A stretch of 64,000 nt of DNA from Physcia stellaris (lineage: Eukaryota > Ascomycota > Lecanoromycetes > Caliciales > Physciaceae), in the NCBI GenBank assembly GCA_018902385.1, contig JABSSW010000046.1:124001-188000 (forward strand), read 5' to 3'. The translations under genes and the position numbers were made by a program. Of this stretch, positions 11,293-42,091 are shown piece by piece; position 1 is the stretch's first letter, and each line of letters begins with the position of its first letter. The notes under the pieces were generated by a model. It ran no database searches, was not told the origin of the DNA, and worked only from the letters and a program-made list of their open reading frames with translations.

Positions 11293-11327
11293 ATCTAGCT
11301 TTTCTCTGTCTGCTATAATGTCTCTTA

Positions 11328-14402: not shown

Positions 14403-15018
14403 GGAACACTATCACTACCAGAGGGGTTGCCGAACATACAAGATCCGTACAATAAGGATGTCGTCTTACGTCTATTCTCCAGTTATCAGCGTTACTGTAG
14501 GACAGTTCAGTCCCCGAATCCGTCTAACCGCGCAAGCCATCAACATACTTTGGCAATTCAAGATTCTTGAGACCCTAGTCGAAGCGGTCTCGGAGGAACA
14601 TCCAATACCCGGTCATGCGAGACCAGCGTGAAGCTGCTGTCAAGTTTTGGGACTGGCTAAACCAGAACCCCCTCTAGCAGGGGAAGAGCATGGCAGTCGC
14701 AAAGAGTCAGTGAATCTTCCCTCAAGCTTTAGCGGACCGCTTTCTTATTATCCAAAAGTCTCATCGTCTACACCGCCACGTCACAACGACTACAAGAGCT
14801 CGACCCTATCCTGAGAATCTGCGGTGTCACCAAGTAATGCTCAATACCGAACGTCGGGCAGTGAACCATATTCTGGGCTCTGCGGGTGGTTCATGCGGTA
14901 CGTATAGCCACTGGCTCAGTCTTGAGGCTCGAGATCATTGCTAATGGAGAGAAACTAGATTTGGTGCCGAAGATCGCGCCCTGTCCTCCGCGACGCCGCA
15001 CAAGACCACATCGTTCAT
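14403..15018 (+). pseudogene. Further broken copies of the FWDWLNQ-type fragment
   Basis: The ETLVEAVSEE text recurs at 14571-14605 and the EAAVKFWDW text at 14628-14660. A partial copy of the downstream SHRLHRHVTTT text is at 14757-14800. The frames are broken and no gene can be built. Confidence 0.4.
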
Positions 15019-15301
15019 TCTACATGACCCCCAAGCCGAAGAGAATTTCCTTGAGATACAATCAGACGCCATCACGAAGGGGTAAAGTGTGCTTCATGAT
15101 CCCCAGGCCGGAGAGGATTTCTCCGAGACACAATCAGACGCCATCACGAAGGGGCAAAGTGTGGTCGTGGTAGACGACAAGGCTGAATATGGGGTACTAG
15201 AGACATGGACCCGGGATTCCTTTTGGGACTGGCTGAACCAGACAGAACCGCTTTCTGATTGTCCACACGTCGCCCTGTCTACACCGCCACGCCACATATG
15301 A
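15019..15301 (+). pseudogene. Twofold APRT fragment fused to the FWDWLNQ fragment
   Basis: Two 73-base copies (about 15019-15092 and 15093-15165) encode the APRT text EDFxEIQSDAITKGQSV, the strand and loop leading to the PRPP-binding VVDD motif. The second copy continues VVVVDD and then, in frame, DSFWDWLNQTEPLSDC, the locally repeated unknown fragment. Codons 15089-15301 stay open. APRT (EC 2.4.2.7) salvages adenine to AMP. This piece has only the central portion and cannot be an enzyme. Confidence 0.65.
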
Positions 15302-16089
15302 TACAAGAGCCATATGGCAGAAAGTCAAGAACAGCCAAGGCCCCAGTGACTGGGGAATTAGAAGTGCTTAGGACGAGGGTCTCGTTACTGGACGCCGAGA
15401 ATAAGCAGATATCTCAGTTGCGAGGGTCTGGAGGGAGCGTTGACGGCAACGCAGTAGAACGAATCCAGCGCTGCCCCGAGAGACTTTCTTTTAGCGTACG
15501 CTGGACAATAAGACTTTCGATGAGATACGCCATCTGATCAATGTAGTGTGAGGTGAGGTGAGGTGAAATGGAACGTCTCGATAAGACACAGTTGCTATAG
15601 TTTGGATGGCCATGGATTAGCTTTATATTGTGTAAAAGCATGCTAGCGCTATGACCTCCTGCTTAAAGTCGTGACACAGTTGCCCGTCGTTGAACTTTTC
15701 TCGAACATCGACTCTGTGAAATGTCCTCAGTAAAGAGCCGACGCCTTGCCTTCTAATAATCAGAGCATCGTTCGCCTCGGCTTCGAATCCCAACAGCACC
15801 GCTTCAGTATCGGTTGAGTGACGAACCATCTTGCCTAGGACAGCGGCCCGGGAAGGCGCCGTGTTCTGCAGCCGCTCCGAAGATTTCCCAACAAACGACC
15901 GGTCAGCAAGGCAGAGGATCGTCAGAGCCTTCTTCAAAGCTTACTGAACTCGAGCACGCCGCAGCTTATCGGAAAACATAGAGTCATCAGTTGACCTCAC
16001 GTCTGAGGATATCACTCTGAGTTCCAGTCACTGGTGGAGTATGAGCTAAACCGTTCTACCACACCACAATCTCGATCTCTCAACGGAAA
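15302..16089. other. Region with short fragments only
   Basis: A short coiled-coil-like frame (TGELEVLRTRVSLLDAENKQ) lies at 15340-15430. At 15455-15600 there is a degenerate copy of the sequence at 25200-25370 (gagatacgccatctgatc shared), and at 15670-15725 a further scrap of the same. No gene was found. Confidence 0.4.
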
Positions 16090-16099
16090 GTCGGAATAC

Positions 16100-16263
16100 T
16101 CGGAAGGACTTACTCCGCGAGTCGTTCTTCCCTGACTGGAACAACGACGCCGCCAACGCCGGCTTTGCCAGCCCCGCCGAGATGCAGAAGCAGGACCCAT
16201 TGGCAACGCAGATATGGAGTTGTACAGCAAGACGAAGACACAGCTGCCGAATCAAGAGCGCAT
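16100..16263 (+). pseudogene. DUF1752 fragment of an AreA-like GATA factor
   Basis: The frame reads RKDLLRESFFPDWNNDAANA, then ASPAEMQKQDPLATQIW and, after a one-base deletion near 16220, KTKTQLPNQERM. This is the DUF1752 signature found near the N-terminus of AreA/Nit2-type nitrogen regulators, just before the usual NLTWRMM. Neither the rest of the activation region nor the GATA zinc finger is present. It is a lone fragment on the plus strand like the other host-gene pieces. Confidence 0.7.
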
Positions 16264-16482
16264 GGGTCGCAACCACGCGATGAGAACCCAATGACAAGTG
16301 GTGAGACCCAACCTCCGAACCAGTCATACGCACAGCTAATAGCCAGCAAGCAGGCAATGAGCGCCATCCTCTGGGACTTCTTTCAGTACTCTCTTCGCAC
16401 CCTTTGATAAGTCAATAGGCAGCTTCAGGGCCCCAGGGATGTTGATTCCCTTCTTCCTGCCTATTTCCTCGGGGTAGATATC

Positions 16483-17600
16483 ATGGCGACTAGCTCTAAG
16501 GAGTGCATAGCGGACGCAATTAAGAACGAATTGAGAGGCAATCGCACCATGAGCGTCACTGATATCATGGATCTTGTGAGAGTGGTATATGACAATACCT
16601 CACGAGGGGATAGACTGCGTCAGGTTTTGGTGGATCACCACCAGTTCGTTCAAAACTACACCTGGAATGGTCAGGATGAGAATTCTGTCAATCGGGGAAC
16701 AGAAGGGACCGCTCCGGCTCGACATCATCTCCAATCCTCTCCGGCGGTGCCGCTACATGTGTTGTGGGGGTTTAGTCGACAACATTCCGGAACTGATTAT
16801 AATGGTGGTTTCCATCCAGGTGGCCAGCCGGCCATGGTTAACAATAACCATCATCAGCGTGCCTTCAACCACCAGAGCCCAATTCGTTTTCATGAGGGCC
16901 AGCAAGCTTTCAATCATGGTACCCCTAACACGTTCGATCAGGGAGCTTCCACGCCGGCGCCGGTGACTCCGCATTCCCAGCGATCCTCACGATAGCGCAT
17001 CCCAACACAACTTCCAACTTAACCTCATCAGCTACGGGCCACCAGGCCGAGTGGTCCAGAAACCATTCTATGCAGAATGGGACGTTGGCCACCGGCCGTA
17101 CTTGCCTTCTCAGGGCTGTCAGCAAATACCGGCGCTCCAGCTTTATGGCGCGACCCCACAGGTGTCCCTCTCAAGCGCTGGACTTGGACCAAATGCCGCC
17201 ACGATTTGTCCATCCAAGTATCTATCAGCCGTTCTATGAACAGTCAATGCCTCAGCAGGATCGACCACCACTTCGGTACTCAAGCTTGTAAGTCCTTCCA
17301 ATCAGTGACCCAAATGTGAAATGAATTACGGCTGACATCTCCTCATTTAGTGCTACAGCGGCCTTCTCCCTTAGGCTACGATCCCTGGCTACGACCCTTG
17401 GCCAAACTCCACGCGAGTGCAGACTGTTTCACTCTAGCCAGCCTCTCAGTCAACCTCAGAGAAAGCCAGAAATGTTTTCAAGGAAGATATTCATCGCTCA
17501 GTCAGCTCAGTCACGACGATCTCTTCGTCAGCTTCTGTGGCAGCTATCAAGGACAGTGGAACAGCACGGATCACCCAACAGAATGTTTTCAAGAAGCCTA
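16483..17600 (+). CDS. Member C: possible Q/N/H-rich family member (exon limits unsure)
   Basis: The ATG at 16483 opens a 170-codon frame with a helical N-terminal part (MSVTDIMDLVRVVYDN) and then a Gly/Asn/His/Gln-rich part (GQPAMVNNNHHQRAFNHQ). This recalls the exon 1 plus disordered-exon layout of members A and B, although sequence identity is weak. It stops at 16995. A good intron (GTAAGT at 17289 to TTTAG at 17350) follows another Pro/Gln-rich open stretch (17040-17288) and leads into a Ser/Gln-rich frame up to about 17600, so later exons may exist. No finger exon was seen. The function is unknown. Confidence 0.35.
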
Positions 17601-18107
17601 GCTCACGCTACGCTGTAGCTAGCTCATCGACGAAGTAGCATTTTGTCCGACTACACCAAAGACGCCTCTTAGAGACGAATCCTCGGCTTTTCTACCTGAG
17701 ACGCGCAAGGCTTGCTGGATGAAAGGATGACAGGGATTGGCCACCAACCAGTCAACGCGGACTGAGCTTTTGTCGCTGAGCGCGTTCTAGCTTTACGTAT
17801 GCTCTTGCTTGCTATTCATTGCTAATCTGTGGTGCACTCCATGCAAAGAATTCTTCTTCACGATCGTGTATTTTGATCTGTAACGCTCAACTCTGTCTGA
17901 TCCACGGTGCTAAAATTGAGCCGAGTCTCGCTTAAGGATTGCCAGTGATCGTAGCACGTAGTCTGCAAGTCCCCTTGAAATGCTAGGAACTACTGCACTT
18001 CCTCCCTTGAATTGTACCATCCTCTTGCATCTCCTAAAGCACAAGAGTCATAGCACAGTGCTGCTGTATGAGATGAAGACCCCGTATGCTGTTTCCGGAA
18101 GCGAGTG
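17601..18107. other. Region without a recognised gene
   Basis: No supported frame was found. A reverse-strand copy of the recurring motif (GTGATCGTA) is at 17945-17953. Confidence 0.4.
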
Positions 18108-18182: not shown

Positions 18183-18420
18183 CCCCACAGCACAGTTTGT
18201 CTCTCAACGCCAAAACCCCAAGGTTGAGATGATACGAGTGGGCAGCGATCATTCGAACCCAAATAGACCTGGCGGCCTCCAGTGTATGGTCCCGCTCGCC
18301 CAGCCCCGAGGCCGTACGGTCATCATCCATCAATGTACGGCCACGCCGTACCTCGACTATCTTTGATCACATCTTACATAGGATCTCTCTTCGAGATAGG
18401 CAGTTCTGTTCCCCAAAGGA

Positions 18421-18890
18421 TATGGCCAAAACCAAGGCGGTTACGGCACTGGCTGGCAAAGCAACCAACGTGAAGACCAGACTTGCTACTCATGCGGAGG
18501 TACCTACCGCACTGTCTGTTTGCTGGAGCGCTGCTGATTTTCTTAGGCTACGGAGGTGGTGGGCGTGGAGGCCAGACTTGCTACTCATGCGGAGGTATTT
18601 CTTCCACACTGCCTTCTTGCTTGAGCGTTGCTGATTGTCTCAGGCTACGGATTGGCGGGTGCGGAGGCCAGACTTGCTACTTATGCGGAGGTATCTTCCA
18701 CACTGCCTCTTTGTTGGAGCGCTGCTGATTATCTCAGGCTACGGAGTGGTGGGCGTGGAGGCCAGACTTGCTACTCATGCGGAGGTACCTACTGCATTAC
18801 CTCCTTGCTTGAGCACTGCTGATTGTCTCAGGCTACGGTCACATGAGTCGCGACTGTACCATGGCTGCTCAGGAAACACGAACATGTCCA
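18421..18890 (+). pseudogene. CNBP-type gene piece with four tandem exon-intron units
   Basis: This is a Gly-rich linker (GYGQNQGGYG) followed by four copies of a unit made of a 47-48 base exon (coding [16 protein letters not shown]) and a 46-50 base intron with GTAYYT donor, GCTGATT branch and YYAG acceptor. Introns are about 18500-18546, 18595-18643, 18691-18735 and 18783-18830. The last unit runs into [11 protein letters not shown], completing a CCHC knuckle. The normal gene needs one such unit. Two of the four exons are 47 bases long and break the frame. CNBP/Gis2-like proteins bind nucleic acid through such knuckles. Confidence 0.75.
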
Positions 18891-19100
18891 CAGCGTTCTT
18901 CAACCGTGACAATCGAGGAATTGTTCGTGATACGATTGAGCTTCTCAAAGAGACCCACCAGGATCGCAAGCCCCCAGACTCATGCCCCTGAAGGCTTCTG
19001 TATAGAGACTTTGATGATTGATCCGGCCAACGAACACCGCCTATGTAAGAAGACCACCCACAAGAAGTTTTGCTGGGCAAAAGCATCGCCGACTAACTTT
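18891..19100. other. No recognised feature
   Basis: This is a short flank with an open frame containing [19 protein letters not shown] text. Nothing was recognised. Confidence 0.3.
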
Positions 19101-19109
19101 TCTATTTAG

Positions 19110-19400
19110 CGGCCGGCTCTCCGATGGTGACGGTCGAGGCCGAGAAGGTGCCCTCGTGATTTTCGCAAGACTGGTGGTGGCGGTGGTGGTGTCGGTTGAG
19201 GATAAATGGGCGGTGGCGGCTATGGTAGTCGCCTCGGGGGTGGCTATGGTTGATGTTTCGGTGGCTTTCAGGTGGCGGCTATGGTATGTGATCCTAGGTT
19301 CCAAAGTGACCAGCCAGGGCTAATATCTCACACAGGCAGCTACGGCGGTGGTGCTCCCAATATCTCCCGCAGCTACGATGAGAGAACAGAGGTTTTTAGG
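19110..19400 (+). pseudogene. Gly-rich protein fragment with one intron
   Basis: One frame is glycine-rich with scattered stops (KTGGGGGGVG, GGGGYGSRLGGGYG). A clean intron (GTATGTGATC near 19286 to CACACAG at 19336) leads into GSYGGGAPNISRSYDE. It resembles the RGG/GYG tail of an RNA-binding protein, possibly the same CNBP-type source or an RRM glycine-rich protein. Confidence 0.4.
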
Positions 19401-20083: not shown

Positions 20084-20189
20084 ATCCTGATCGCGGTCGG
20101 GCATGAAGCGAGCTGGCAGCAGTATTGCCAGCGCCAGGGCTGCTGGCAGTCCTGGCGTAGGCTTCTCGAGCAGCCCTTGCGACGGGCAT

Positions 20190-20370
20190 GTGGGGGACCT
20201 AACCATTACGCCCGAGGGCTGTCAGGCGCAAGCAATGAAATGCTACGCTTGCGGAAGGTTGGTAAGACTGCTCGTCCATTGAAGAGAACACTTAGCTCAC
20301 TGTAGCAGGGCCACATCTCTCATGATTGTACCGCTCCAACGCTGCGGGAGCTGAGGATTCTGCTAAGTAC
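20190..20370 (+). pseudogene. CNBP-type zinc-knuckle exon pair
   Basis: The frame reads AMKCYACGR, then an intron (GTAAGA at 20264 to TAGCAG at 20310), then GHISHDCTAP. The spliced text is a C-x2-C-x4-H-x4-C knuckle as in CNBP/Gis2 proteins. The flanking sequence does not continue the gene. Confidence 0.65.
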
Positions 20371-20809
20371 GTATCCATCAACAGGTCTTGCACCCCATGG
20401 ATTTCAGCTTGATTCGTCTGCGATGCTGCGAAAGGTTTGGACACCATGTCCTCAGACGGATGGATACCAATCCGTTCACATTGTCACCAATGAAGGATCT
20501 GTGTCACAGGATCTGCGTCACGGTATTCGATGGGTATGAGCACTAGCCTGATCTTCAAACTCTCCATCATGCTAATCGAGTACCTAGATGTGGTCCTGGG
20601 CTCGAAGACGATAGAATAAGAGCTTCTCCTCCCTATCCAGGCGACTCCTCGCCTCTTCAAAGAGGAGATAACTGAGCTTTATGAAAAGGTCAAGAAGACC
20701 TTGGCTCTTTGGGTATTTCCTGACACGAGCCCTTCAGCCAAAATGATTTATTGATACTTTCATCTTTCAGATACACTTTGACTGTCTCGTCCTTGGCCCG
20801 TACAAACCG
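20371..20809. other. Region without a recognised gene
   Basis: One open stretch (TDGYQSVHIVTNEGSVSQ, about 20460-20530) may be a gene scrap. Nothing was identified. Confidence 0.3.
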
Positions 20810-21033
20810 GATGAAGGCGATCACAATGTTCTAGAGATGTCTCCAAGCGCAAGAAAGCCAACGGGGATGAAGGCGATCACAATGTACTAGAGATGTCTCC
20901 AAGCGCAAGAAAGCCAACCGGGATGGAGGCGATCACAATGTCCTAGAGATGTCTCCAAGCGCAAGAAAGCCAGCCGGGATGAAGGCGATCACAATGTCCT
21001 AGAGATGTCTCCAAGCGCAGGAAAGCCAGTCAA
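20810..21033. repeat. Four tandem copies of a 56-bp unit
   Basis: Copies start at 20810, 20866, 20922 and 20978. Each reads gatgaaggcgatcacaatg, then agagatgtctccaagcgcar and gaaagcc. They differ at only a few positions, so the expansion is recent. The unit contains GCGATCAC, close to the dispersed CACGATCAC motif. Confidence 0.95.
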
Positions 21034-21660
21034 GCCGTTGAAAAGGGAGTCGACAAGGCAAAGCGCCTGACACTGGATCTGGCACTAACAACCAGAATAC
21101 ACTCAATAGCCTTGAGGATCAAGCGAGAGGTCAGTAGCCAGGTGTCTCTCCCAGCCGACATCGAGATTGTTACTCGAGAGCGCCAGCTCGACTAAAGTAC
21201 TCGTACAGTACCTTACCATCAATGGACGACGAACCACCCAGACCGCGACGTCTCACCAAACCTCCACCCCAAATGCATCGTTCAATGCGAGGATGAGTGC
21301 CAACGTCGCGACCCAACTGGCGCCAGCTCGACTAAAGTACCGTCTGGACGACGAACCACCCAGACCGTGACGTCTCACCAAACCTCCACACCCCAAATGC
21401 ATCGTTCAATGCGAGGATGAGTGCCAACGTCGCGACCCAACTAGGGTGCACGCAGAGGCAGTTTTGAGAGATGGAAGGGTGGCTTTGCTTGGGCAAGAGC
21501 AGGAATACAAGAGCGAAGGACCGCGACGTCTCACCAAACCTCAACCCCCAAATGCATCGTTCAATGCGAGGATGAGTGCCAATATCGCGACACGGCTTGG
21601 GCGCACGCATGCATTACTAGAAAGAGATAGTGTTTTAAAGGTAGATGAGACGTAGCTTGT
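21034..21660 (+). repeat. Three copies of a NASFNARMSAN-coding segment
   Basis: About 60 bases with the core aaatgcatcgttcaatgcga recur at 21268, 21396 and 21547, each followed by gatgagtgccaay. One frame reads NASFNARMSANVATQL, then GRTHAxA. The flanks (gacgtctcaccaaacctc) are repeated too. The source protein was not recognised. Confidence 0.75.
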
Positions 21661-22223: not shown

Positions 22224-23269
22224 ATGTCGTCTTCAGACGTCACTTTCTTTTCCACCACCATCTGGCGGCTGGAAGAGAGGAACACATTACGGTACATAGT
22301 AGAGAACTGGTCGGAATATCTGACCCGTGCACAAGTGTACCAAGCACTTGTGCAACTCGGTGGACCTAACTCCCCCAACTATCGTTTCAATCATCGTTCG
22401 ACAGATCTCTATGATGGTAAGCCGGTTCTTGCAGGTACCCAGTGCATCAGAGTAACTGACGGCGAGTCCGCCAGGGAACGACGAATGGATGAGTGAATAT
22501 GAGCCAATGAGCGAGGTGGACCCAAGGTTCCCAGAGAACCGTAATCCAAACTACAATCAATGTAAATTTGAAGCCCGTTCCCACCGCTTGAAAGAACAGA
22601 GGGCTGACGTCTTCATCGCAGCGCTGTCCCCGTACGAGAATCTAGGCTTTCCCATTTTGAATTTCGGGTTCGAAGAAAATGGTATGGAGCATAATCCGCA
22701 ACTTGAGCTCGTCGGCTAAATGTCTTGTTAGAAATCCCTGGGCCCAATGTACCTCTGCCAACCACGTCGCTGAACCAGCTCTTTGCGAAATTCTGTGAAT
22801 TGAACCTTGGGCACTTCGAGGACAGAATAGAAGCTGATAGGGAGATAAATAGTCATTCGCACCGTACCTGATCCGCAGCTCAACGGTTCGTCGGCCGTGA
22901 TCTCGATGGCTTGTTGTAATCCGAAAGCTAACGCGGAGAGTAGCACCACCTTTTCTTCACCCATGGCCGTCTGGCCCAGCACCCTTTGTCACTGAAGACC
23001 AGATGCGACACCTCACGAAGCGGTGCTATGGTAAAACCGTATACGGCAGGAATCGGACCGCTTTCTGTGCCATCTATATCCAAGGCCGAGAACGACCAAT
23101 TCCTCCATACAAGTACAACGGCCGAGCAATACATCCTCTGATTTTCCCCTGCCCGATCTGCCCCCGCCTCTTCGCGCACAGTTCCAGCGTGAGACCGCAC
23201 TTTGTCGAATGTGTCCGACAATATGGCAATCCAGCATCTCTTCATTTCGACTCCGCCATAGGGCCTTAG
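22224..23269 (+). CDS. Member B: shorter C2HC-finger family gene
   Basis: Supported exons are 22224-22416, 22475-22681, 22732-about 22863, and the last one from about 23003 to the stop at 23269. Exon 1 ends YLTRAQVYQALVQLGGPNSP and splices in phase 1, as in A, D and E. The exon beginning EIPGPN matches the exon of A beginning EIPGPD at the same junction and phase. The last exon has GRNRTAFCAIY, RERPIPPYK and C-x2-C-x12-H-x3-C followed by YGNP, aligned throughout with A. Only about 140 bases separate exon 3 from the finger exon, so the long Q-rich exon of A is missing. I could not fix that junction. It is either a short functional variant or a deletion derivative. Confidence 0.6.
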
Positions 23270-24639: not shown

Positions 24640-25560
24640 ATGTTGAATATATCTAAGTTGACTGGTGTAGTAACAGCGCCAACACTGGCCAGGCGAACCG
24701 TCCCTCCAGTCAGCATACTTCACGATCACCGCGTCCCCCACCCTCAACCTACTTCACGATCACCGCACGGCTGCGGACCTTTACCACCGAGCAAGAGACT
24801 AGGTTGGCATAGGAAGGCGACTATCTACTGTGGAGAAGCCTGACATGATGCCGCTTACGGTATTTTCGACGTACTTGGCAGATTCAAGATCACAGTGTAC
24901 AATCAAGACCGGTTAGAGGACAATGCGCTTGAAGAGACCGTCAGTCGGCAGTATACGCCAACGATGTTCAGCTCTTCACTGAATACAATGCCAATCTGGT
25001 TACAATGGCCGGAGTCCTTGAGAGCCTTCACGACACTGCCGTGGGCTTACCGATCACACTTCAAGATGTCATGGACAACAACCTGCGGGACAAGGACCAG
25101 AGGGAACAGGTTATGTCAAAGCGTTGGCCGGCAACTACGCACATCAGGGACGACTTCTTGGTTTCTGTATCACATGCCTTTGATTGGAAGTGTCTCGAGG
25201 GCCGCCGCCCGAGAGATTCCTTTTAGCGTCCGCCGGGGACATCAAGACTCTTGATGAGGTACGCCATCTGATCCAGGTAATACGACGTGGAGTGGAACGT
25301 CTCGGTATGGCACAGTTGCCCGGCGTCGAATTCCTCCCAAACACCGACCCTGTGAGATTGTCTTCTCGGCCCCTACCAGACATCGTCATGGAAATATTAC
25401 TGGAAACGTAGCCTCATCAGGCACGTGCAAGATCCTCGTCAGGAGCTGCGAAGCGCCGTGGCCGTCTAGTTCAAGGACAGCGCGTCACGTTAGAGAGCGA
25501 TGGTGCGACGAATACAGACGATGAGATGGAGCTTCGCGCTTCCGAGACTATTTATCATAG
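24640..25560 (+). pseudogene. Unknown coding scraps; 25.2 kb segment repeated at 15.5 kb
   Basis: Two CACGATCAC motifs lie 33 bases apart at 24721 and 24754. At 25184-25411 one frame reads LDEVRHLIQVIRRGVERLGM, then QLPGVEFLPNTDPV; degenerate copies are at 15460-15600, 15670-15725 and, for the last part, 39205-39255. The protein was not recognised. Confidence 0.35.
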
Positions 25561-27275: not shown

Positions 27276-27278
27276 CAG

Positions 27279-32769: not shown

Positions 32770-33255
32770 CTCATCACCTTCGAACTCCTGGATCTGGAGG
32801 TAAAACTGCACCAATCTCTTCGCCAAAAGCTTATCCTGCAGATCTTCCCGCTGAGCATCATCATGCCTTCTTTCTACTGATCCGGGGGTAGAGGCGGTCG
32901 TCTGCGGGTTCGAAAGAGCTCAGCGTCGCGGTTGTGCCATCTCTGCTCGCGCAGAGAGGCAGAGGAAGAGTGCAGTTGCTAATTTGAAGCAGTGGCGCCG
33001 CAGCCGTGGTGTCTCGACATCAATCGCGTTGCAAGCATTCCTCCGGGGCCCAATTTCTCTGACTGGCTTAAACATACAGTATTCGGGGACTTCCCCCACC
33101 ACCACCGAACTCTCCGATCTGGAGGTAAAACTGCATCAATCGCTTCGCCAATTTCCCGACTTCCCCTCACCTGGCATACTGTTCGAAGATATCCTGCCTA
33201 TATTCAGCAACCCCGCCCTTCACGAAGCCTTAATACGTGCCCTTGAGCTACATAT
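32770..33255 (+). pseudogene. Two copies of the APRT N-terminal region
   Basis: The text DLEVKLHQSLRQ occurs at 32785-32830 and at 33118-33153. The second copy continues FPDFPSPGILFEDILPIFSN, then PALHEALIRALELHI, the classical APRT N-terminus. In between is unrelated DNA. Together with 33457 and 26.7-28.4 kb, all parts of APRT exist in this window, but in scattered order. Confidence 0.7.
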
Positions 33256-33339
33256 ATCGCCCTGCATTGCACCAAGCAGTGATTGATTTTGCTCGCTTCT
33301 TTCACGACGCATCACAACGCCGCCGACCCTTTGCTCACA

Positions 33340-33412
33340 TCAGTCAAGCTATTTGAGGTTATTATCATCGATGAAGGCACACAAGCTCACGAGACGGATC
33401 TCTTTAAGGTTG
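33340..33412 (+). pseudogene. Possible SF1 helicase motif II scrap
   Basis: A short open stretch reads KLFEVIIIDEGTQAHETDLF, recalling the Walker B motif of Upf1/Sen1-like superfamily 1 helicases (DEAxQxxE). It is only about 24 residues and the identification is tentative. Confidence 0.25.
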
Positions 33413-33456
33413 GATGTCCAATGTAATGACATGGATGTGTTGGGAGTTGGTCTCCT

Positions 33457-34158
33457 CAGGACCACGCCAAGAAGGGAAAGCTTCCTGGACCTACCAATTC
33501 GGCTTCTTATGAGAAAGAGTACGGAGAGGACTTCTTTGAGATACAATCAGACGCTATCACGAAGGGACAAAGTGTGCTCGAGGGTGCACCACCACAGACA
33601 CCGACGCCAAATCGAATCCGTGCTACATTGCCGCCTGCTGAGCGGCCAGCGACAGTTTCCACATGGGCAAAGCCAAAGGATTTCAACGTTGCAGGGTGCC
33701 GGGTGTCCCGCTCTCATTGGTATTGCAGAGGAACTATTGTGATGTTCCATCTCCGCTCTGATGGATATTTCGAGACTCCGAGTGAGTAGGCTCACTCAAG
33801 AGCATCGACCTAAGACTCCAGCCTCATCTTCCAACCAACAGTGGTTGCTGCGCCTAATCCACTCACCGTCAGCACATCCAAAGCTGCCTCGGCCATGCAT
33901 GTAATGAGGTACCGGGTAGGAATGGACACCATGTATCCGAAACCAACTGGCGAAATGAGTATGAGGCTGCGCGACCTGACCAAGAACGGAGATGAATCGA
34001 GGATGCATGTCAGCGATGAATTGGGTTTTGGCGAAAGAACACAGACCATCCTTGCCAGTCTAAATCAGGAGGGGACGTTCCGGACTTCTTTCCCTTTGAA
34101 GGCATATCTCGCTATGGAGGTCCGCCGCCACGGGGTGTGGTCCGCATCGGAAACGTAG
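33457..34158 (+). CDS. In-frame fusion: APRT middle exon plus unknown domain
   Basis: From a CCTCAG acceptor-like site near 33459 the frame reads KKGKLPGPTNSASYEKEYGE, then DFFEIQSDAITKGQSVL (APRT), and without any stop continues EGAPPQTPTPNRIRATLPP and an unrecognised text (HWYCRGTIVMFHLRSDGYF). A 60-base intron (GTGAGT at 33782 to ACAG at 33841) joins in frame to an exon ending at 34158 (MHVMRYRVGMDTMYPKPTG, then LGFGERTQTILASL). The unknown part therefore has conserved-looking exon structure, and the APRT part is an in-frame N-terminal addition. No upstream exon supplying an ATG was found. Confidence 0.45.
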
Positions 34159-34487
34159 GTTGTCCCCATACAAAGGGTGTTATGACTCTGTGCTAACATC
34201 ACGGTCTTCAGAGTCCATATGACCTCCCTCGACAAGAAGTCGTCGCTTTCCTCGGCCATCACCACCAGCGTCTTATCTGGTTCGCTCCTGACTGTCGCTA
34301 AGTCTTCCGATATACTATATATTTGTCATTTTTGTTGCCACACCCTTTCAAAGCTCGAAACAACTCTTCAAATCGACTCTTTTAAAGAGTGTATATACCC
34401 TCGATTAATCTTCCTCTATACCGAACGCAACAACCATGCCTGTTCTTCACCCAGGCATTCTCCTTTTCTCTCACCACTCTCGCCTGC

Positions 34488-34794
34488 CACGATCACTCAA
34501 ACACCGTTTCAGCAGCGGAATCGGCGGCGCAGGCAACATGCACAGGCATTCGATGACGCAATTGCCGAGCTTGACTCGCTTTCGGAAGAATCCTACCGGG
34601 ACAGCACCCTGATCATGCAGCTACTGCGTGAAAACCTTCCGCTTTGGACCTCATCCGATGGTGGTGACGGTGAGGCTGCTGCATCCGGCGATGCAGCTAA
34701 GGAGGGTGAGAAAGCCTCACCAGCGGAGCCTAAGGCTGATGCTCCTGCGTCAACCGAACCCCCGGCGGAGGCTCCTCGTTCTACCGAATCCTAA
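34488..34794 (+). pseudogene. 14-3-3 protein C-terminal exon
   Basis: The frame from 34543 reads [20 protein letters not shown], then [20 protein letters not shown], the last helices of fungal 14-3-3 (Bmh/ArtA) proteins, which bind phosphoserine clients. It is followed by an Ala/Glu/Pro tail to a stop at 34794. The upstream seven helices are absent. CACGATCAC (34488-34496) in pyrimidine-rich DNA stands about 50 bases before the exon, as if a promoter leader had been put next to a 3' exon. Confidence 0.8.
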
Positions 34795-34997
34795 ATACCC
34801 ACCTCTGCTGTCATCCACCGATTCCCGTAAGGACCTGTTTGACGAGGCCTTGACAAACCAATCGATCAGGAGCATAGCCGCTGGTGGAAGGATTAAGGAT
34901 TGGTATAAGAAGAGCAAGTTTTTCGTTTTAGCCTGCGAAAGATCCCATCCTTGGGCCAGCAAGAATCTGGATGACTGGATCATGTCTCTAGATCGGG
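34795..34997 (+). other. Open scrap between two host-gene fragments
   Basis: The frame reads GGRIKDWYKKSKFFVLACER, then HPWASKNLDDWIMSLD. It is coding-like but not recognised. It may be the link sequence of another captured gene. Confidence 0.25.
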
Positions 34998-35154
34998 CAG
35001 GTGCCCGCAGAGCAAGGTCGCAGGTTGGCAGAGGAATTCAAATGCGCCTTCACCGAAGCCAGTGCGAGGTTAAACCAGAATGTCTCCAAGGCCTTCGAGC
35101 AAATGATTGCAGAAGTGGAAAAATCCCAAAATCCTAGCGAGCCGACGGGTGGGA
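34998..35154 (+). pseudogene. Rheb-like small GTPase C-terminal fragment
   Basis: The text VPAEQGRRLAEEFKCAFTEA, then SARLNQNVSKAFEQMIAEVE, matches the end of Rheb/Rhb1-type GTPases (G5-region SAR motif, final helix), which signal to TOR. The G1-G4 motifs are missing and the usual CaaX end is not reached. Confidence 0.7.
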
Positions 35155-35530
35155 AGACTCTTCGAACTTCCAGTTACACCCTTATGACCCTGATGAGGAC
35201 GAGACGGTATTGGTGGATGAAACACCTGACGACGATAGCGACACAGCCTACGACCCTCATGAGGATGACACTGCATTTAAGGATGGAACATCTGATGACG
35301 ATAGTGATACCGAAGAGTCTACAACCACGGACTCCGACTACGCAGAAGATGGAATTGAGGACTTAAGCGACAATCCTGAGAGCACGTCAGCGGCTCCCCA
35401 AACAGTCCCAGCTGGAGACGCAGATGTTGCAACGCAGAAAGAACTGAAGCCGGCATTGAGGTTCTTCGCATCTCTTGAGATGAAAATGCGTTATGGTCGA
35501 GGATGAGGCTTCTGACCATGCATGACTCGT
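35155..35530 (+). CDS. Acidic Asp/Glu/Ser-rich frame with internal repeats
   Basis: The frame up to about 35506 reads DETPDDDSDTAYDPHEDDTA, then further DDDSD and DSDYAEDG repeats, and ends QKELKPALRFFASLEMKMRY. An acidic disordered segment plus a short ordered end is all that can be said. The first codon is not a clear ATG start, and it may be a 3' exon of an unknown gene joined behind the GTPase fragment. Confidence 0.25.
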
Positions 35531-36290
35531 CTTTGTTGACTCCTTCCTCTTAGTCTACGGATGCATTATCATGTGATGTCAGAGGCGTACTTCTAGTTCT
35601 GGTCGAGCCGGGTAACAAACAGATGGCTGGATGAGGATTCACCGAGTTAATGGAAGGCTGTCCCGAATCGAGTACCTTGCGTGGAAAGTTGGAGGCTAGA
35701 TCAGTTGACCCAAAATCGGACGGCGACTTTTCCAGGCAAGGCACTCTGGCGTAGCGACGACGGCGATCAAGATCAGGTTCATTTCTTCCACAACCGGCGC
35801 CCCCAGATCCGAAAACATCAACACATGGATCTTCCAAATAATCTTCTCGTCAGCAAATTCAAGCCCGGGTGCGATATCGCTGGCAATAGATTCTGTGCCG
35901 CCGGTACAACCTTCATCGAATCTAGCGCGTGAACGGAGCAGACAAGTCTCGCTCATCCAAGAGACAGTAGAGAGTGATCTTTCTTCGTTCAAGAACACCA
36001 CCGCCAACGATGGTAGGAGGAGGGCCGCGGCTTACGAATTCAACGCAGTCGACATGAACGACTTGGACGAATTCAACATGGATGACTGGGTCCAAGAAGA
36101 GGTCGTCATGAACGACTTGGACGAATTCAACATGGATGACTGGGTCCAGGAAGAGGTCGTCATTCCAGAAAACCTCCTTGATGACTCACTATTCCCCGAA
36201 GCGTCGTGGAAGGTCGCTGCACGCAGCAATGAGAGTAAGCTCGCTCCACAGATAGACCATAGGCATATCACTAACATCTGTTGTTCTTAG
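35531..36290 (+). CDS. Unknown frame with 54-bp in-frame duplication
   Basis: Around 35895-36290 the frame contains an acidic 18-residue unit (MNDLDEFNMDDWVQEEVV) twice in tandem (36053-36106 and 36107-36160), then IPENLLDDSLFPEASW. Upstream, 35770-35930 is open but unrecognised. The unit length is exactly divisible by three and the copies differ at one base, so the duplication is recent. The function is unknown. Confidence 0.3.
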
Positions 36291-37290
36291 ATCTGCCTCT
36301 CCCTTGACGTTGAAGTCTGTATTGGCCGTAGCCAGCCGCACTGTGTACACCACTCATTTGTCCTTCAACAAGACTCATCCCACACACTCTACGGCATCGC
36401 TCTACGAGTCTGGTCTCGAGCTGACGAGAAGCGGGCCAAGATCATTCGAGACTCAAGAAGGCGGACCGAGTCAGACTATTACGATTCACCAGACGATACC
36501 CGCTCGATTCCCTGTTGCCTAAGCTTCTTATCAAGATATTCGTCGTCAGGCCATTACTCTGATGATCGTCGGAGCAGTCGTTCTTGTTTTCGAGACATGC
36601 TGCGACTGGTCTCCCTTCTTCGCAGACGACACTCAGCAAATGTACAAGAACAATGCTTTCGGAGGCAAGAAGCAGGCTATCGAAGCCGGCCGTGAGGCTC
36701 TGAAACTCGCAAGCACTGGCGATATCGCCGACGACGCAGAGACCGAAGTCGACGATGCAGATGGCGACAAGGCCGCAATTTTTGAAGTGTCTCCTGAACC
36801 GCAATTCGAAGCAACATCTAGGCACCTTTCTTAACAATCACGACGGCACGAACGGCGTACGGCTTCATCGTCGCCAAGACGGGCATTCAGTGCTACTGGC
36901 GTCTGTGGGTGGCGACGCTCGAAAGAATACCCTTCCAATACCCTTCCAATATTCGTTTTATCCATCAAGGCTTGATACGGAACCGAGCTGCCAGGTTGAG
37001 AGAAGAACGAAGGCAGTCAAAGACACCGTATCATCCGCCAAGCGTGTTGCTCTCCAGCATTATCTCATCATCTCGTCTGTTTGGTGCCGGCGGGGGACTT
37101 TGCTTTGTTCCTGGAGCGCATCCACCAATGACACAAAAGAATATCTCAAGAAACGTTGCCAATGGTTTCGGAAAAGGACCGGAAACGCTTAACCCTCAGG
37201 AGCGCCCCTTTGCTACTGGTCTTGATGCAGAAGAAACTCCGCGACGGTTGCGTGCCGCTCCTTGTTCCTCTCGTATTGGATAGCCATGTA
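36291..37290 (+). other. Coding-like scraps, not recognised
   Basis: Several frames follow each other (QMYKNNAFGGKKQAIEAGRE at 36640-36700; AYGFIVAKTGIQCYWRLWVA at 36860-36920; an Arg-rich stretch near 36990). No single gene could be chained and no domain was recognised. Confidence 0.25.
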
Positions 37291-37467
37291 TCGACAGGTA
37301 TATATATAACACCCACAACCTTCTTCTATCCGATACCAGAACCACTATTTCCTCTGTATAACACCCACAGCCTTCTTCTTTCCGATACCCAATCAATTAT
37401 TTTCTCCGGGGGCGCCTAAACCCCAATCCCTATACAAAGGCACTCGTGGATCGAACCCTTTCAAGCT
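37291..37467. repeat. Two copies of a leader-like 33-bp segment
   Basis: tataacacccacarccttct at 37305 and 37359 is followed by tctwtccgatacc in both copies. A TATA-like tatatatata run precedes the first. It may be promoter-type DNA in front of the Ccr4 fragment. Confidence 0.55.
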
Positions 37468-37800
37468 CTCAGATACGCCTCGACAACAATTACTTACACT
37501 ACCTCAACCCTTTGATCAGCCAGTTGAGACAATTGACTCATCTAGACCTGTCCAACAATGGGCTCAAGCTCCTGCCCCCCGAGATCGGCCGTCCTTGTTA
37601 ATTTGAGGGAGCTATATCTCTTTGACAATAAGATAAGAGATATACCTCTCGAAGTCGGATACCTATGCAAGCTCGAGATATTAGGGATCGACGGTAATAT
37701 AGGACTAGATGAAGATCTAAAAGAGATCATGGTCCAACAAGGGACGAAGGCGCTAGTAGAGCATCTTCGAGAAAGGATCGATGCCCAAAGCGATTCGTGA
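37468..37800 (+). pseudogene. Ccr4 leucine-rich-repeat fragment
   Basis: The text IRLDNNYLHYLNPLISQLRQ, then LTHLDLSNNGLKLLPPEIG and, after a frame change near 37588, LVNLRELYLFDNKIRDIPLE and DEDLKEIMVQQGTKALVEHL is the LRR block that precedes the nuclease domain in fungal Ccr4, the CCR4-NOT mRNA deadenylase. It ends IDAQSDS at a stop. The exonuclease domain is absent. Confidence 0.8.
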
Positions 37801-38084
37801 GCGGCTTGGAAGGTGTTCCTGAAGAAGGCCACGAAGGGCTCGGTTCCTCGGAGAGTCCGATCCTATATATAAGCATACACTCCTTTTCTCCGACACCTAA
37901 AATCTTTTCTTCGATATCTAAACTCTTTTTTTCGATACCTAAACAACTCTCGAACAATCCTCACTATTAGTGCGGAATCGGGAAGCCGGAGCGTGAGGTA
38001 CGCGACATGTTCTTTCTTCACGGACAGACTCTGATGTTTCACAGACCGACAAGGCGGCAGCGGATGCAATACATCCGGCTGAGC
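37801..38084. repeat. Short flank with three degenerate 24-bp repeats
   Basis: tttttcgatacctaaa-type units recur three times at about 37880-37945 (ccgacacctaaaatctttt, cgatatctaaactctttt, cgatacctaaacaactc). No gene was seen. Confidence 0.5.
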
Positions 38085-38170
38085 ACCAGCAACGAAGATC
38101 TGGTTGAGCTGTTCACGACTATCGGTAAAGTCGAGCGTGCAGAGATCCAGTACGAACCCAATGGCGGTAT
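38085..38170 (+). pseudogene. RRM fragment (first half)
   Basis: The frame reads IRLSTSNEDLVELFTTIGKV, then ERAEIQYEPNG, the beta1-alpha1-beta2 part of an RNA recognition motif. The rest of the domain is missing and the frame continues into unrelated sequence. The source gene is perhaps an Nsr1/Gbp2-like RNA-binding protein (inference). Confidence 0.6.
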
Positions 38171-38712
38171 TGAATCTCATCAACCCAGTCTACCAGAGGC
38201 TATCTCCGAGCTGGCCGAAAAACCAAACCCAGCGACTGGTCAAGTTACAGCCGCCACCGTGACTCCATCGACATCTAGGGGACTGGGGCTCAGCTGGCCC
38301 TTGAGCGTGCTGGGAATACGGAGCCGATCGTCAACTCCATGGCCGTCTTCCGAAGTACATGCGCGCGGTTGGAGATCGACCTCAAGTCGGTGCAGGAAGC
38401 CCTAATCATTCCACTGCTGGAATATCTCCAGTGAGCACTGGCCATCGTGGTAATACCACGGGGCTCAGCATACTCAAGGAACCCTGCAGAACTTGATATC
38501 AAGCTACAGCCTGTCAATCAAGTGGAGACAAACTCGTATGAGGTTGTTGCCGCCATGATCGTTGCCAGGGACAAAATCAGGAGGTCGCAAGAGATGACAA
38601 AGATCGCCATGCGGTTGAATCCAGGTGCTGCTGAATTCCATCCGGGACAACAGAGTGGAAGACAGGGAAGTAGTGGCACTCAAGGCCAGTAGAGCTGTTG
38701 CAGGATTGCAAC
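38171..38712 (+). other. Coding-like scraps, not recognised
   Basis: GAQLALERAGNTEPIVNSMA, then STCARLEIDLKSVQEAL (about 38285-38430) and SYEVVAAMIVARDKIRRSQE (about 38535-38600) look like pieces of real proteins, but I cannot name them. Confidence 0.25.
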
Positions 38713-38945
38713 TGGACGCCTGGCGAGCTGATGGATTACTGGCAAGCCGCCTCGTCATAAGTGATCAGCGCGTCGCCTGGCGAGCTGATGGATTACTGGC
38801 AAGCCCGCCTCGTCATAAGTGATCAACGGGATGCCTGGCGAGCTGATGGATTACTGGCAAGCCCGCCTCGTTATAAGTGATCAACGGGACGCCTGGCGAG
38901 CTGATGGATTACTGGCAAGCCCGCCTCGTTATAAGTGATCAGCTG
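38713..38945. repeat. Four tandem copies of a 57-58 bp unit
   Basis: gcctggcgagctgatggatt starts copies at 38718, 38775, 38833 and 38891; each also has actggcaagc, cgcctcgt and ataagtgatca. Near identity suggests recent expansion. Confidence 0.95.
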
Positions 38946-39300
38946 CGTCGCTAATCCTCACGACTCCTTTGAATCGACAGTGTCGACTGCAAGCATCTAT
39001 GACTCTGGAAGCTCAACTCCTCCTAACTCTGCCTTTCGCTCATCCGGCGATACGAGTCAATCAGTCACTGTTCCTGGTACTCCGGCAACTTCAGATACCC
39101 GAAGATCAACTCATGTACGCCGGAAAGCAGTTAATCCTGGCTATGAGCGTGGGGCCTTTTCCGAGTTCACCACAAGCCCTATCAGCTCCCTTGGACGTGC
39201 TGCAGGAAATGTACAGGCGAGGAATTCCTCCCAAATATCGACCCTGTGAGATACCCACCTAAGAAAGCCCGGAAGAATACGACCACGCCGGATGATGCTT
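38946..39300 (+). CDS. Ser/Thr-rich frame of about 100 codons, doubtful
   Basis: The frame 38935-39249 reads SFESTVSTASIYDSGSSTPP, then SQSVTVPGTPATSDTRRST. The low-complexity composition is like a disordered regulatory region. Its start lies in the 58-bp repeat. The end (about 39205-39255) repeats the text found at 25.33 kb. Confidence 0.25.
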
Positions 39301-39500
39301 CTCGTTGATTTGGCAAGAGCTATCCTTACTATGATGAGAATTCTCCATGACGAGGTGGTGAGCGTTCATTCACGGATCATCACGGACGTGCTGTAGGTTG
39401 CCTACAGGCTAAATTGCTTGACAAGGGCTATCTTGATTGTGATGAGAGCTCCTCAAGACGAGGTGTTGGGCATTCATCCACGGATCCCTACGACAGTCAG
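39301..39500. repeat. Direct repeat, offset about 106 bp
   Basis: tggcaagagctatccttactatgatgag (39310, quoted in part) and its variant at 39416 are followed by caagacgaggtg or catgacgaggtg and cattcayggat. Confidence 0.75.
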
Positions 39501-40170
39501 AGTGGTTTTAGCTCAATTGTACGTGCCGCTCGAAGTGCAGTCTTGGAGCACTATGATCGGGCTGTCGTTGACGTTTAAACTTCTTTGTTCGAACAACAGT
39601 CCGCGAGCTCGCCTGAAGAATCATTTGTCGACTTCAACATCAGTCTCTTATCTCGCCCGTTGTGCCGCACGGGAACAGAGTCGTTTGATGCATCGTTTGA
39701 TAATTCAAAGTCACGCTCTCCATCTACTTCTTATAAAATAGAGGCGCAATCACCGCTCGGTCGCAAATTGGGTCGATTCATTACATTGTCAACGCTCAGC
39801 CTTTCTCGAGCACCTCTCGCAAAGTGTAAGAAGCCACTCAGCCAGGTACCGTATCACCAGAAGAGATGGTCCAGCTCGTGTCGGAGATCCAAAGCTGCAT
39901 CATTCATTGGGAGACTGCCCGTTCTTGCAGTAATTTTCTGTCTCGTGCGGCCTGGAAACCTTCACTCTCAGTCCTTGATCCCAACAACGATCTCTGTATA
40001 TAGATATAGGCCCGAAATCGCTCCTTTCCCAAGAGCCCTCTCTGCGTCTTTCCGAGATGAGACAGCCACGATTCTTATATATGAGCCTTTGAAACAAAGC
40101 CGACATCTTAAACCTCTCTTTGATAATCAATCGCGCTCCTTGCTGCGCTCTCAAAGGCGCTGCGTTGACC
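39501..40170 (+). other. Coding-like frame then leader-like DNA
   Basis: The frame 39585-40247 is Ser/Arg-rich with no recognised domain. From 39990 a TATA-like tatatagatatag and a pyrimidine-rich stretch precede the ATG at 40171. Confidence 0.25.
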
Positions 40171-40509
40171 ATGTCATCCGCCGATTCGAGTCCAGTACAG
40201 AAGGCTCAAGCCAGCGCTTTAGCAAAAGAGACCACGACGTGGATTAAAGCCGCTCAAGAATTTCAGACCTTCATGACTTGCACTGGATGCGAAAGATTAG
40301 TCTGCCCAGAATGTGTCGGCATCTGCCCAATTGAGCCCTGCTTCGATCGCCTTTGCAAGGACTGCAGAGGCCATCATCAGCTTCTTCAATTCCAGCTCAA
40401 TGGTCTGAGCGTGATACTAGGCGTGGACCCATGCATTTTGGCACAAATCGCAAAAGACCGCGAGTTTGCCCACCCAGAGTTCAACCAAGCTCACGGATCA
40501 AAAGAATAA
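40171..40509 (+). CDS. Small Cys-rich protein, 112 aa
   Basis: An ATG in good context (GACCATGTC) follows TATA-like and pyrimidine-rich DNA. The protein has [20 protein letters not shown], then CFDRLCKDC, giving the spacing C-x2-C-x4-C-x2-C-x3-C-x3-C-x4-C-x2-C with paired CxxC motifs that could bind zinc. The family was not recognised. Its last seven codons (QAHGSKE) and stop codon come from the first bases of the PAK kinase fragment read in another frame, so the C-terminus was set by that joining event. Confidence 0.5.
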
Positions 40510-40912
40510 GCGCGCCACCATGGTCGGAACACCTTACTGGATGGCCCCTGAGGTGGTCAAGCAGAAGGAATACGGCTCCAAAGTTGACATGTGGTCCCTC
40601 GGCATCATGGCCATTGAAATGATCGAGTCGGAACCACCATACCTGAATGAGGAACCGCTTAAAGCCCTATTCCTCATCGCTACTAACGGCACGTCAACAC
40701 TCAAGAACCCCGACAAGCTTTCAAGAGAGCTCAAAGTGTTCCTTAGTCAGTGCTTAACAGCAGCCGTTGACAACCGTGCGACAGCTCAGGAGATCCTTGC
40801 TAACGACTTCTTACGCAAAGGCGACTGCTCGGTCAACAGCCTCATTGCCTTGCTCAAGTTCCGCAAGGCGGCTTTGAGACTCGAACTCTACCGTCGGGTA
40901 CTCTCGCGATAA
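40483..40912 (+). pseudogene. PAK/Ste20-family kinase C-lobe fragment
   Basis: The frame reads [20 protein letters not shown], then [40 protein letters not shown] and [18 protein letters not shown]. This is the activation segment (with the phosphosite Thr in ATMVGTPYW), APE motif and C-lobe of Cla4/Ste20 kinases, which act downstream of Cdc42. The Gly loop, VAIK Lys, HRD and DFG motifs are absent, so it cannot be a kinase. The reading frame is otherwise intact to 40912. Confidence 0.85.
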
Positions 40913-41169
40913 TATTAGCACCAACGCTCAATCGACAAATGCTACTCCATCCCAGTACCTTCGTTATTCGAATGAGAATAGATCTCCAATGAGCCTGGCT
41001 CCTTCTCACCGCGCACCTCAGCAGCTTAGTCCTGTCAGAATACAAGATCAAAACGCTCCCGCTCATTCATCCAAGCTGTTCAAGTCACCTTCTCCGCTTG
41101 TAAGGGGATCTTTGCTAGAGACTTCCAGAGTGCTCAAAGTACCGGTGCTCCAAGCAATAAACTGACGTT
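40913..41169. other. Link sequence between fragments
   Basis: A Pro/Ser/Gln-rich scrap (APQQLSPVRIQDQN) but no recognised domain. Confidence 0.3.
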
Positions 41170-41319
41170 GATGGCTGCTCGATCATAAAAGACCCTCATA
41201 CCCAAGAAACTCGCCGCTTTAGATTTATTAAGATGTTTACTGCTGAGCAAGCCGATGCTGCGAAATGGAATCTTCGGGATGAGAATGTTGAAGGTCGTAC
41301 ACTAACCATTCAAAAAGCT
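41170..41319 (+). pseudogene. RRM fragment (second half)
   Basis: The frame reads IIKDPHTQETRRFRFIKMFT, then AEQADAAKWNLRDENVEGRT and LTIQKA. It matches the RNP1 strand, helix 2 and last strand of a Tra2-like RRM (dPxTxesRGFGFV). Two RNP1 positions are altered (FRFIKM). It is a fragment of a splicing-factor type gene distinct from the 38.1 kb piece. Confidence 0.65.
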
Positions 41320-42091
41320 CCGATACCCAGTCTTCTGCTGTCTCTGACATTGGCTTCCAGAATCCCGACTACCAATCAGGCTCGACGTGCTCGACCCCGA
41401 ACTCCCACGTCTGGTTAATATTTGGGTCGACTCAATCAAGTCCGACCTAAACGCGGTCTCAACCGGATATCCCATGGGCATTGATAGCAGAATCAATGCT
41501 GGTGACACCGGCAAGAAAGTCGAACAATCAACGCACTGCGCCTGACGCCAGCAATGGCTTTCGGAATGCTAGCACGGACAAAGGCCTGCATGATTCCACA
41601 GCCCCTGGAAATGGCGGTGGCTGGGATGAAGTTCCCAAGACTGATGGGGTTACTATTCACAACAATCAACCACTGCGTCTGAGGTTGGCGTCCATACAAC
41701 AAGCAACGCACTGCGCCTAGCAATAGCGTCCGACACTCACAAGACAGTACGACCATTCCGAGCCGACACGAAGAAGTCCGCTGAGCTCGATGATAACAAC
41801 ACCAATAATCCTGGAGATCCTCGATAAGAACGGTATCCGAGGAGACCGCGTGTGGAGACGCCAAACAAGAAGGGGACCAGAAGCATGGATGCTCCTCCGT
41901 GCAGTCAACTGGGCTAGAGTAAGTTCAAGTTCCAAGGTTTGACGAAAGAAAGACACTAACATTGAAAGACAGAGTGAAAGTCTATCAAGGAAAAGAATCA
42001 TGACTGGGATGACTGATGGACGATAAGGTATGAAATTGCTCTTGGCTTTTTCTGAAGGAAAGGAATCTAATTGTGAATTGGGAAAGGATCT
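41320..42091. other. Region without a recognised gene
   Basis: Short frames occur. Small repeats of caacgcactgcgcct are at 41528 and 41705. Nothing was identified. Confidence 0.35.

Follow-up and report, generated by a model that had tools for sequence, protein, structure and literature searches.

The window analyzed here, a 64,000-nucleotide stretch of the lichen fungus Physcia stellaris (contig JABSSW010000046.1, hereafter C46, positions 124001 to 188000 of the forward strand), carries a large part of a ~56-kb array built from short pieces of at least 36 genes that lie elsewhere in the same genome. The pieces are inserted into one another, have kept introns, meet at junctions resembling those of end joining, and are gathered at one main locus, where they read mainly outward in the sense direction of their donor genes. 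We tentatively interpret the array as a long-lived insertion sink, in which copies of transcribed genes would have been inserted serially at break sites in an orientation set by transcription, most likely via unspliced RNA, a reading that we prefer while giving it somewhat less than even confidence. The usual explanations for gene-fragment capture are transposons and random filler at breaks. A main sink that is free of recognized element parts, near-strict in its outward sense orientation, and deeply nested fits neither of them well, and the array suggests that gene copies are written into a single site by an unfamiliar, directional process.

The assembly analyzed comprises 43.97 Mb in 147 contigs; the published one was derived from axenic cultures of ascospores, sequenced to ~31x (Nanopore) and ~30x (Illumina), and comprises 46.57 Mb with 10,522 predicted genes and ~2.3 introns per gene (PMC7513301). 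Donor loci are abbreviated by contig and approximate kilobase (C52:190 is contig C52 at ~190 kb), and pieces are given in window coordinates. Window segments 1-14100, 14000-28200, and 28100-43000 were searched against the whole genome, with the best candidates scored, so that the resulting lists are lower bounds; 67 loci were then fetched and the window was re-mapped with BLAST. Two left-arm searches were dominated by dispersed repeats. With such repeats set aside, 127 matches were found over C46:107-188 kb, measuring 27 to 435 bp (median, 104 bp) at 73 to 100% identity. Assigned pieces of the right arm span 1384-41654; with eight donors fetched later included, their coverage is 49% over 13.5-41.7 kb and 28% over 1384-13500. 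Leftward, pieces of C52:190, C15, C21:169, C1, and C24 reach C46:110442, outside the window, and this side is sparser than the right and contains dispersed repeats and a 431-aa plus-strand open reading frame (ORF).

A sequence-only reading of this stretch had described a mosaic of fragments from at least eight host genes at 14.9-41.4 kb and had proposed that intact donors be sought in the same genome. The mosaic is borne out, as donors of every type named were located, each with a matching piece in the window, while the array proved longer and its donors more numerous than had been stated. Pfam names the donor ORFs of APRT (C12:380, phosphoribosyl transferase domain), GATA_AreA (C48:128; formerly DUF1752), 14-3-3 (C11:232), a Ras-family GTPase (C7:52), an LRR gene (C1:587), three RRM genes (C3:335, C17:278, and C17:676), the MAT alpha1 HMG-box gene (C4:738), two PAK-type genes (the kinase lobe deriving from C21:385), a PH_10 gene (a domain of Cdc24), and BTB, DENN, DEAD-box, and CCCH zinc-finger genes. 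The CNBP-type donor (C43:312) was recognized by its zinc knuckles, and the remaining donor ORFs have no Pfam family. Several donors were used again at separate sites (C1, C15, C3:1172, C35, C22, APRT, CNBP, and C52:190). As far as can be judged, pieces of at least ~92% identity sit in or right beside the donor ORF, although conserved donors are detected more easily and intergenic sources may be missed. Within the array itself, a Pfam search of the three plus-strand frames of 14902-24899 returned only a sub-threshold AreA_N match.

Donor coding strands were taken from best-scoring ORFs, Pfam matches, or relatives (C40:174 through its likeness to C40:179); no strand was assigned to C39, C6, C12:582, or C52:258, and dispersed repeats were excluded. 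In the right arm, each of the 28 first-set donors with an assignable strand has sense pieces on the plus strand. In an out-of-sample test on eight stretches from eight further donor genes, picked blind to strand from a list holding several more, the main piece was again sense in 8/8, and two of these donors (C24 and C21:169) also have a piece left of 1195 that is antisense to the plus strand. Over 1384-41654 as a whole, 36 of 36 strand-assignable donors have their main pieces sense on the plus strand. Left of 1195, C1, C15, C52:190, C21:169, and C24 have pieces antisense to that strand; the array reads outward in both arms, with exceptions, and the orientation switches between 1195 and 1384. 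The previous claim that all fragments lie on the plus strand holds for these main pieces of the right arm; it fails left of 1195, where the direction is reversed, and for one C35 piece (2777-2993). The best ORF would also be antisense for C11:504 (11002-11102), C54:25.3 (22181-22224), and C52:258 (32886-33009), with weak scores for the former two and not for C52:258, and the strand reading of C54:27126 (9963-10172) is ambiguous. Counting the C35 piece, C11:504, and C52:258 as antisense leaves 36 of 39 sense (two-sided binomial, ~4e-8, donors taken as independent).

Two further sequences touch the arms. The 431-aa ORF lies at C46:120311-121606, part of it (C46:121406-121598) being an inverted 77% match to window 52337-52526, and it could represent a paralogous gene or else a piece oriented against the outward rule. 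In addition, C46:120681-120852 is an inverted 79% match of 172 bp to window 3455-3623, with its axis near window position 150, not far from the orientation switch, and may be what is left of an ancient inverted duplication.

Nesting is beyond chance. In 12 distinct cases, written here as host[insert], the host gene resumes after the insert with a donor gap of -7 to +41 bp: C52:190[C39], C52:190[C21:74], C21:164[C48], C21:164[C21:74 + C3:755], C43[C39], C7[C21:70], C60[C1], C40:179[C3:335], C40:179[C40:174...], C40:174[C27...], C27[C21:382], and C52:235[C3:1172]. A thirteenth host, C28, encloses a dispersed repeat. There are 38 nested same-donor pairs, local duplicates counted, compared with 7.3 on average and never more than 17 over 300 shuffles; eight dispersed-repeat rows, which the listing of nests and junctions includes, are excluded from this pair count. 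At 25 junctions between different donors, among pairs no more than 12 bp apart, the gaps range from -7 to +9 bp, and a base-by-base view of five inserts revealed short overlaps and small host losses. Filler DNA at repaired breaks (PMC2686159) is a related phenomenon. End-joining filler likewise has short copied inserts, small losses, and short overlaps.

Six alignments were inspected for GT-AG ends. The intron is clearly kept in three of them (CNBP, APRT, and DENN), which confirms what had been read from the sequence for APRT and CNBP, and is probably kept in a fourth, the PAK 5' piece. A scan for collinear matches with an intron-sized gap in the donor and no gap in the array found no intron-removed piece among the 127 matches. 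Retrocopies of mature mRNA were rejected on these two grounds. Because kept introns are equally compatible with it, unspliced pre-mRNA may have served as the template; the earlier statement that copying was not from mRNA is therefore sound for mature mRNA, whereas placing the copying at the DNA level was too strong. With the donors present, introns kept, and pieces nested, the proposed capture and shuffling zone is upheld.

The array is the main sink for the two donors followed genome-wide. All 15 secondary matches of the CNBP region fall on C46:126-153 kb, and 21 of the 28 secondary matches of the C52:190 region fall on C46, the other seven lying in one tandem repeat at C21:267.6-268.0 kb. 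A 9.5-kb control stretch on C21 had no other match in the genome, and the 19.5 kb right of the array (44.5-64 kb) gave 45 matches, 38 of which belong to one dispersed repeat. A second array on C21 was considered and rejected, since the 22 kb around C21:267.5 kb, from which the 9.5 kb searched against the genome were taken, contain a dispersed repeat and a single tandem repeat, the latter related to an array piece. The last and best copy of that tandem repeat (C21:267543-268032; unit, ~57 bp) matches an array piece, window 392-479, at 92% identity but the C52:190 gene at 83%, as if an array piece had been copied out and then multiplied.

Residue comparisons suggest that part of the array is old and that at least one source was close to the present lineage. 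For C52:190, set against a relative and an outgroup, the residue was common to the piece and P. stellaris 10 times, while the alternatives occurred 1 and 3 times (14 of 18 pieces, 895 residue comparisons with some residues counted repeatedly; 60 of the 107 piece-only changes are due to one frame-shifted piece), which places the source of these pieces close to the P. stellaris lineage. The corresponding counts for C52:235 (4, 2, and 3) decide nothing, and one C52:235 piece retains 14 residues lost both in the P. stellaris gene and in its nearest relative, P0001. Over all scored pieces (11,031 sites; one C14 piece counted against two ORFs), differences are distributed 265:263:578 by codon position, with 531 synonymous and 575 nonsynonymous; the 26 rows right of 33 kb contribute 92:84:266, and the remaining rows contribute 173:179:312. 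A simple two-age picture was rejected, as third-position divergence is continuous. Repeat-induced point mutation (RIP) was likewise rejected as the source of divergence, given a symmetric substitution spectrum (519 versus 530, no AT drift) and no enrichment of C>T before A.

Among known systems, maize Helitrons with stepwise capture are the nearest. They too carry many unrelated gene fragments, added sequentially, in one stretch, but most are smaller than 10 kb (PMC3288121); the ~56-kb array, by contrast, has nested pieces, and no element protein or end was recognized and no second copy seen. Pleurotus and other fungal Helitrons are also reported to capture genes and to mobilize them (PMC4289320), unlike an array for which no second copy was found. 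As a statement of membership, the Helitron comparison drawn in the sequence-only reading is not supported. A giant element of the Helitron-like or another rolling-circle type, immobile today after stepwise capture of gene pieces, has the maize precedent behind it, and the genome does hold Helitron_like_N matches; we nonetheless consider it very unlikely. None of the 19 genome rows for this domain lies on C46, and the plus-strand frames of 14902-41599 contain no such Pfam match (minus-strand frames were not scanned). Among the best candidates scored there was no second copy of the mosaic and no match longer than 435 bp, and the ends of five inserts are plain gene sequence (no TC/CTRR pattern scan was made, and the outer array ends were not included). 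Elsewhere, C2:1304017-1304595 has a Helitron_like_N match in a 794-aa open frame, and 14 of the 19 rows have stops, as RIP would give.

Elements of the Pack type have terminal inverted repeats around the captured pieces. Like the array, Pack-MULE and other Pack-TYPE elements reportedly contain shuffled pieces of coding DNA (PMC8903248). No inverted repeat of 40 bp or more was found in the window with 16-base seeds (short repeats are not excluded by this). BLAST gave seven weaker inverted pairs over C46:107-188 kb, of which at least four are C52:190 copies in opposite arms; the inverted matches join the arms or distant places, unlike a Pack-type terminal pair, and membership in either Helitrons or Pack-type elements is not supported. 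Filler DNA is not known to favor one orientation or to gather at a single genomic sink. The inserts of end-joining filler would be expected to lack a preferred orientation, whereas in the right arm of the array all 36 assignable donors have sense pieces and few pieces are antisense. PIWI-interacting RNA (piRNA) clusters gather nested insertions of biased orientation at one locus. They resemble the array in these three respects, although they are built of transposons and the array of host gene pieces. Searches of an open-access literature library listed no locus of this kind.

Under the reading that we favor, short copies of transcribed genes would be inserted one by one at breaks, and pieces become nested because every new copy lands in whatever sequence is already there. 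Transcription would run outward through both arms, starting somewhere between 1195 and 1384. Where the array's template strand is then nicked or broken, the nick or break could prime the copying of a nearby unspliced transcript, a target-primed, RNA-templated insertion, and the remaining end of the insert would be closed by end joining. Every insert made by copying RNA from a 3' end of the template strand is sense, so that orientation, genic origin, and kept introns would have a single explanation, and no mobile-element protein or terminus would be needed in the array itself. A bolder extension, which we regard as unlikely, is that the locus is a nuclear site at which unspliced cellular transcripts are written into DNA in fixed orientation by a route free of mobile-element ends and coding sequence, a natural directional and long-term record of RNA that possibly feeds small RNAs against its donors, among them signaling, mating, and RNA-binding regulators.

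Several observations weigh against an RNA-templated, transcription-directed sink. DNA copying would keep introns just as well, neither poly(A) nor any other hallmark of retrocopying was noticed in the array, and the outward transcription of the arms is itself deduced from sequence. C35 has an antisense piece at 2777-2993 besides its sense pieces elsewhere, and in the left arm a 96-bp C24 match (C46:117066-117157), outside any ORF, points opposite to the rule for that arm. Pieces are sparse in the left arm, which also has repeats and the 431-aa plus-strand ORF, and no donor was detected for about half of 13.5-41.7 kb, the coding-strand bias of this half in a codon-usage test being 0.61 versus 0.58 for shuffled sequence. 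Uniqueness of the sink is drawn from two donors, CNBP and C52:190. Younger inserts would be expected to be nearer to their donors than the host is. This is the case in 5 of the 12 nests (C21:164 twice, C40:179[C3:335], C40:174[C27], and C27[C21:382]), while insert identity falls between that of the two host parts in three and the insert is farther from its donor than the host in four (C52:190 twice, C43[C39], and C7[C21:70]), which slightly lowers our confidence. Identity is a poor clock because donors evolve at different speeds, and since it orders insertions badly, the case for serial growth is the nesting itself. In addition, eight right-end pieces (LRR, two APRT, two C52:190, 14-3-3, Ras, and PAK; picked after the fact from the 26 rows) differ mainly at third positions (17:10:118 over 1682 sites). 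In-place decay since parting from the donor should give changes at position 1 or 2 that are roughly half those at position 3, or more, and such an excess is not predicted by capture from this genome followed by neutral decay. Either the right-end sources had already diverged as coding sequence when captured, in a related lineage or as a coding intermediate, or change within the array is unusually slow.

The main rival, which we judge rather unlikely but the most serious, assigns the orientation to selection: filler would be captured at the DNA level and without bias at a fragile locus, and antisense inserts would later be removed via RNA interference (RNAi). Outward transcription of an antisense piece would give RNA that pairs with donor mRNA and silences the donor, sense pieces would survive, and RIP acting on longer duplicates would also keep the pieces short. 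This agrees with pieces of at most 435 bp, kept introns, junctions resembling end joining, the RIP-like decay suggested by the stops in Helitron match rows, and Piwi-domain matches at seven places in the genome (three uninterrupted in frames of 539 to 997 aa, a fourth with one TGA). The filter must, however, be near-absolute even for 46- to 82-bp pieces and for donors such as the mating-type gene, and it leaves unexplained why the best-matched pieces sit in or beside genes. As a natural record of serial insertion, the array has a direction that can be set directly against strand-specific RNA, and such a comparison could separate nuclear RNA-templated insertion from RNAi-based removal of antisense copies. 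A different proposal concerns the source and is compatible with either insertion mechanism: a related lineage would have assembled the array or just its right end, and hybridization would have brought it here, the donors in this genome being only cousins of the true sources. The third-position-heavy right-end pieces, the symmetric spectrum, and the 14-residue stretch kept in one piece are in its favor, but the residues shared by C52:190 pieces with P. stellaris and the 96 to 100% identity of several pieces to genes of this genome make it improbable. An assembly artifact is hardly credible, as a single contig contains the array without interruption, long and short reads from axenic culture both went into the published assembly (PMC7513301), and nested, mutated junctions between pieces 73 to 100% identical to donors are not expected of misassembly.

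Pieces of the array in window coordinates, with the strand on which the donor coding sequence lies
Position	Strand	Content
1..1195	-	Left arm within the window: expanded C52:190 gene (189.8-190.4 kb) pieces
1384..1451	+	First right-arm piece, C11:505317-505384, 90%
1453..1674	+	C15 PAK-type gene piece (P21-Rho-binding domain)
1886..2146	+	C21:169 gene piece (another C21:169 piece antisense in left arm)
2203..2332	+	CNBP piece (C43:312)
2777..2993	-	C35 piece, exception to the arm orientation
9455..9891	+	C54:26 gene piece, 79%
11110..11665	+	C19:653 gene pieces, 90-91%, duplicated in part
12185..12460	+	C21:282 gene piece, 90%
13557..15296	+	C52:190 pieces; nested C21:74 (BTB) 14431-14508 and APRT 15037-15179
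15385..17709	+	C3:1172 pieces surrounding interrupted C21:164 pieces
16067..16265	+	Interruption of C21:164: C48 GATA_AreA, 96.5%
16429..16990	+	Interruption of C21:164: C21:74 BTB and C3:755
18417..18860	+	CNBP pieces, intron kept, tandem duplication
18870..19358	+	C28 DEAD-box helicase pieces enclosing dispersed-repeat copy 18979-19111
20113..21053	+	C35 pieces (last ones 95-98%); C12:582 piece without assigned strand
21179..21591	+	C15 PAK-type gene pieces, 96-99%, duplicated
23267..23428	+	C22 gene piece, 76%
25208..25550	+	C3:1172 gene piece, 80%
25926..26384	+	Nest CNBP [C39 26044-26215] CNBP; host resumes at -2 bp
26739..28190	+	APRT pieces, intron kept, locally multiplied
28488..29493	+	CNBP zinc-knuckle pieces, locally multiplied
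32755..33580	+	APRT pieces (91-95% in 33092-33580) enclosing C52:258 32886-33009, strand unclear
33588..34262	+	C52:190 gene pieces, collinear
34543..34946	+	14-3-3 C-terminal end and 3' flank, 88%
34996..35660	+	Nest Ras-family (96%) [C21:70 35166-35506] Ras-family 3' part (96%); host minus 6 bp
36030..36202	+	MAT alpha1 HMG-box piece (C4:738), 94-99%, small duplication
36212..36539	+	DENN-domain gene piece (C14), intron kept
37410..37839	+	Nest C60 PH_10 [C1 LRR 37478-37781] C60; 7-bp host duplication
38024..38951	+	Deepest nest, followed by 58-bp tandem repeat: C40:179 [C3:335 RRM] C40:179 [C40:174 [C27 [C21:382 PAK 5' part] C27] C40:174] C40:179
39029..39766	+	C52:235 gene pieces enclosing C3:1172 39216-39286
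40136..41159	+	C52:234/235 pieces, C17:278 RRM 40360-40484, PAK kinase lobe 40485-40871
41163..41654	+	C17:676 RRM, C22, and C30 pieces; right end of assigned array

Beyond the left limit of the array lies a transporter-like ORF, judged from its translation, and the genes found right of 41.8 kb encode kinase, Clr5, and Kelch domains. Short tandem expansions occur at or inside pieces at 18469-18838 (unit, ~94 bp), 20803-21026 (~56 bp), and 38709-38941 (~58 bp), and another (42089-42457; unit, ~72 bp) is placed just right of the array. Farther right, the dispersed repeat with 38 rows is ~370 bp long at 45768-46139, its rows being 65 to 92% identical. The best of the seven other matches in that region, 53082-53351, which is outside the array, is 88% identical over 270 bases to C7:366611-366884 and is either a gene piece or a family member. 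Two more short dispersed repeats have many copies, one of ~231 bp (C46:117274-117504) and one of 320 to 340 bp (window 18979-19111 and L069:6639-6954), and one short dispersed-repeat copy sits inside the C28 gene piece of the array. Finally, C61:113733-113966 contains a weak 14-3-3-like stretch in a 332-aa frame, just under the Pfam cut-off, possibly a divergent 14-3-3 relative.

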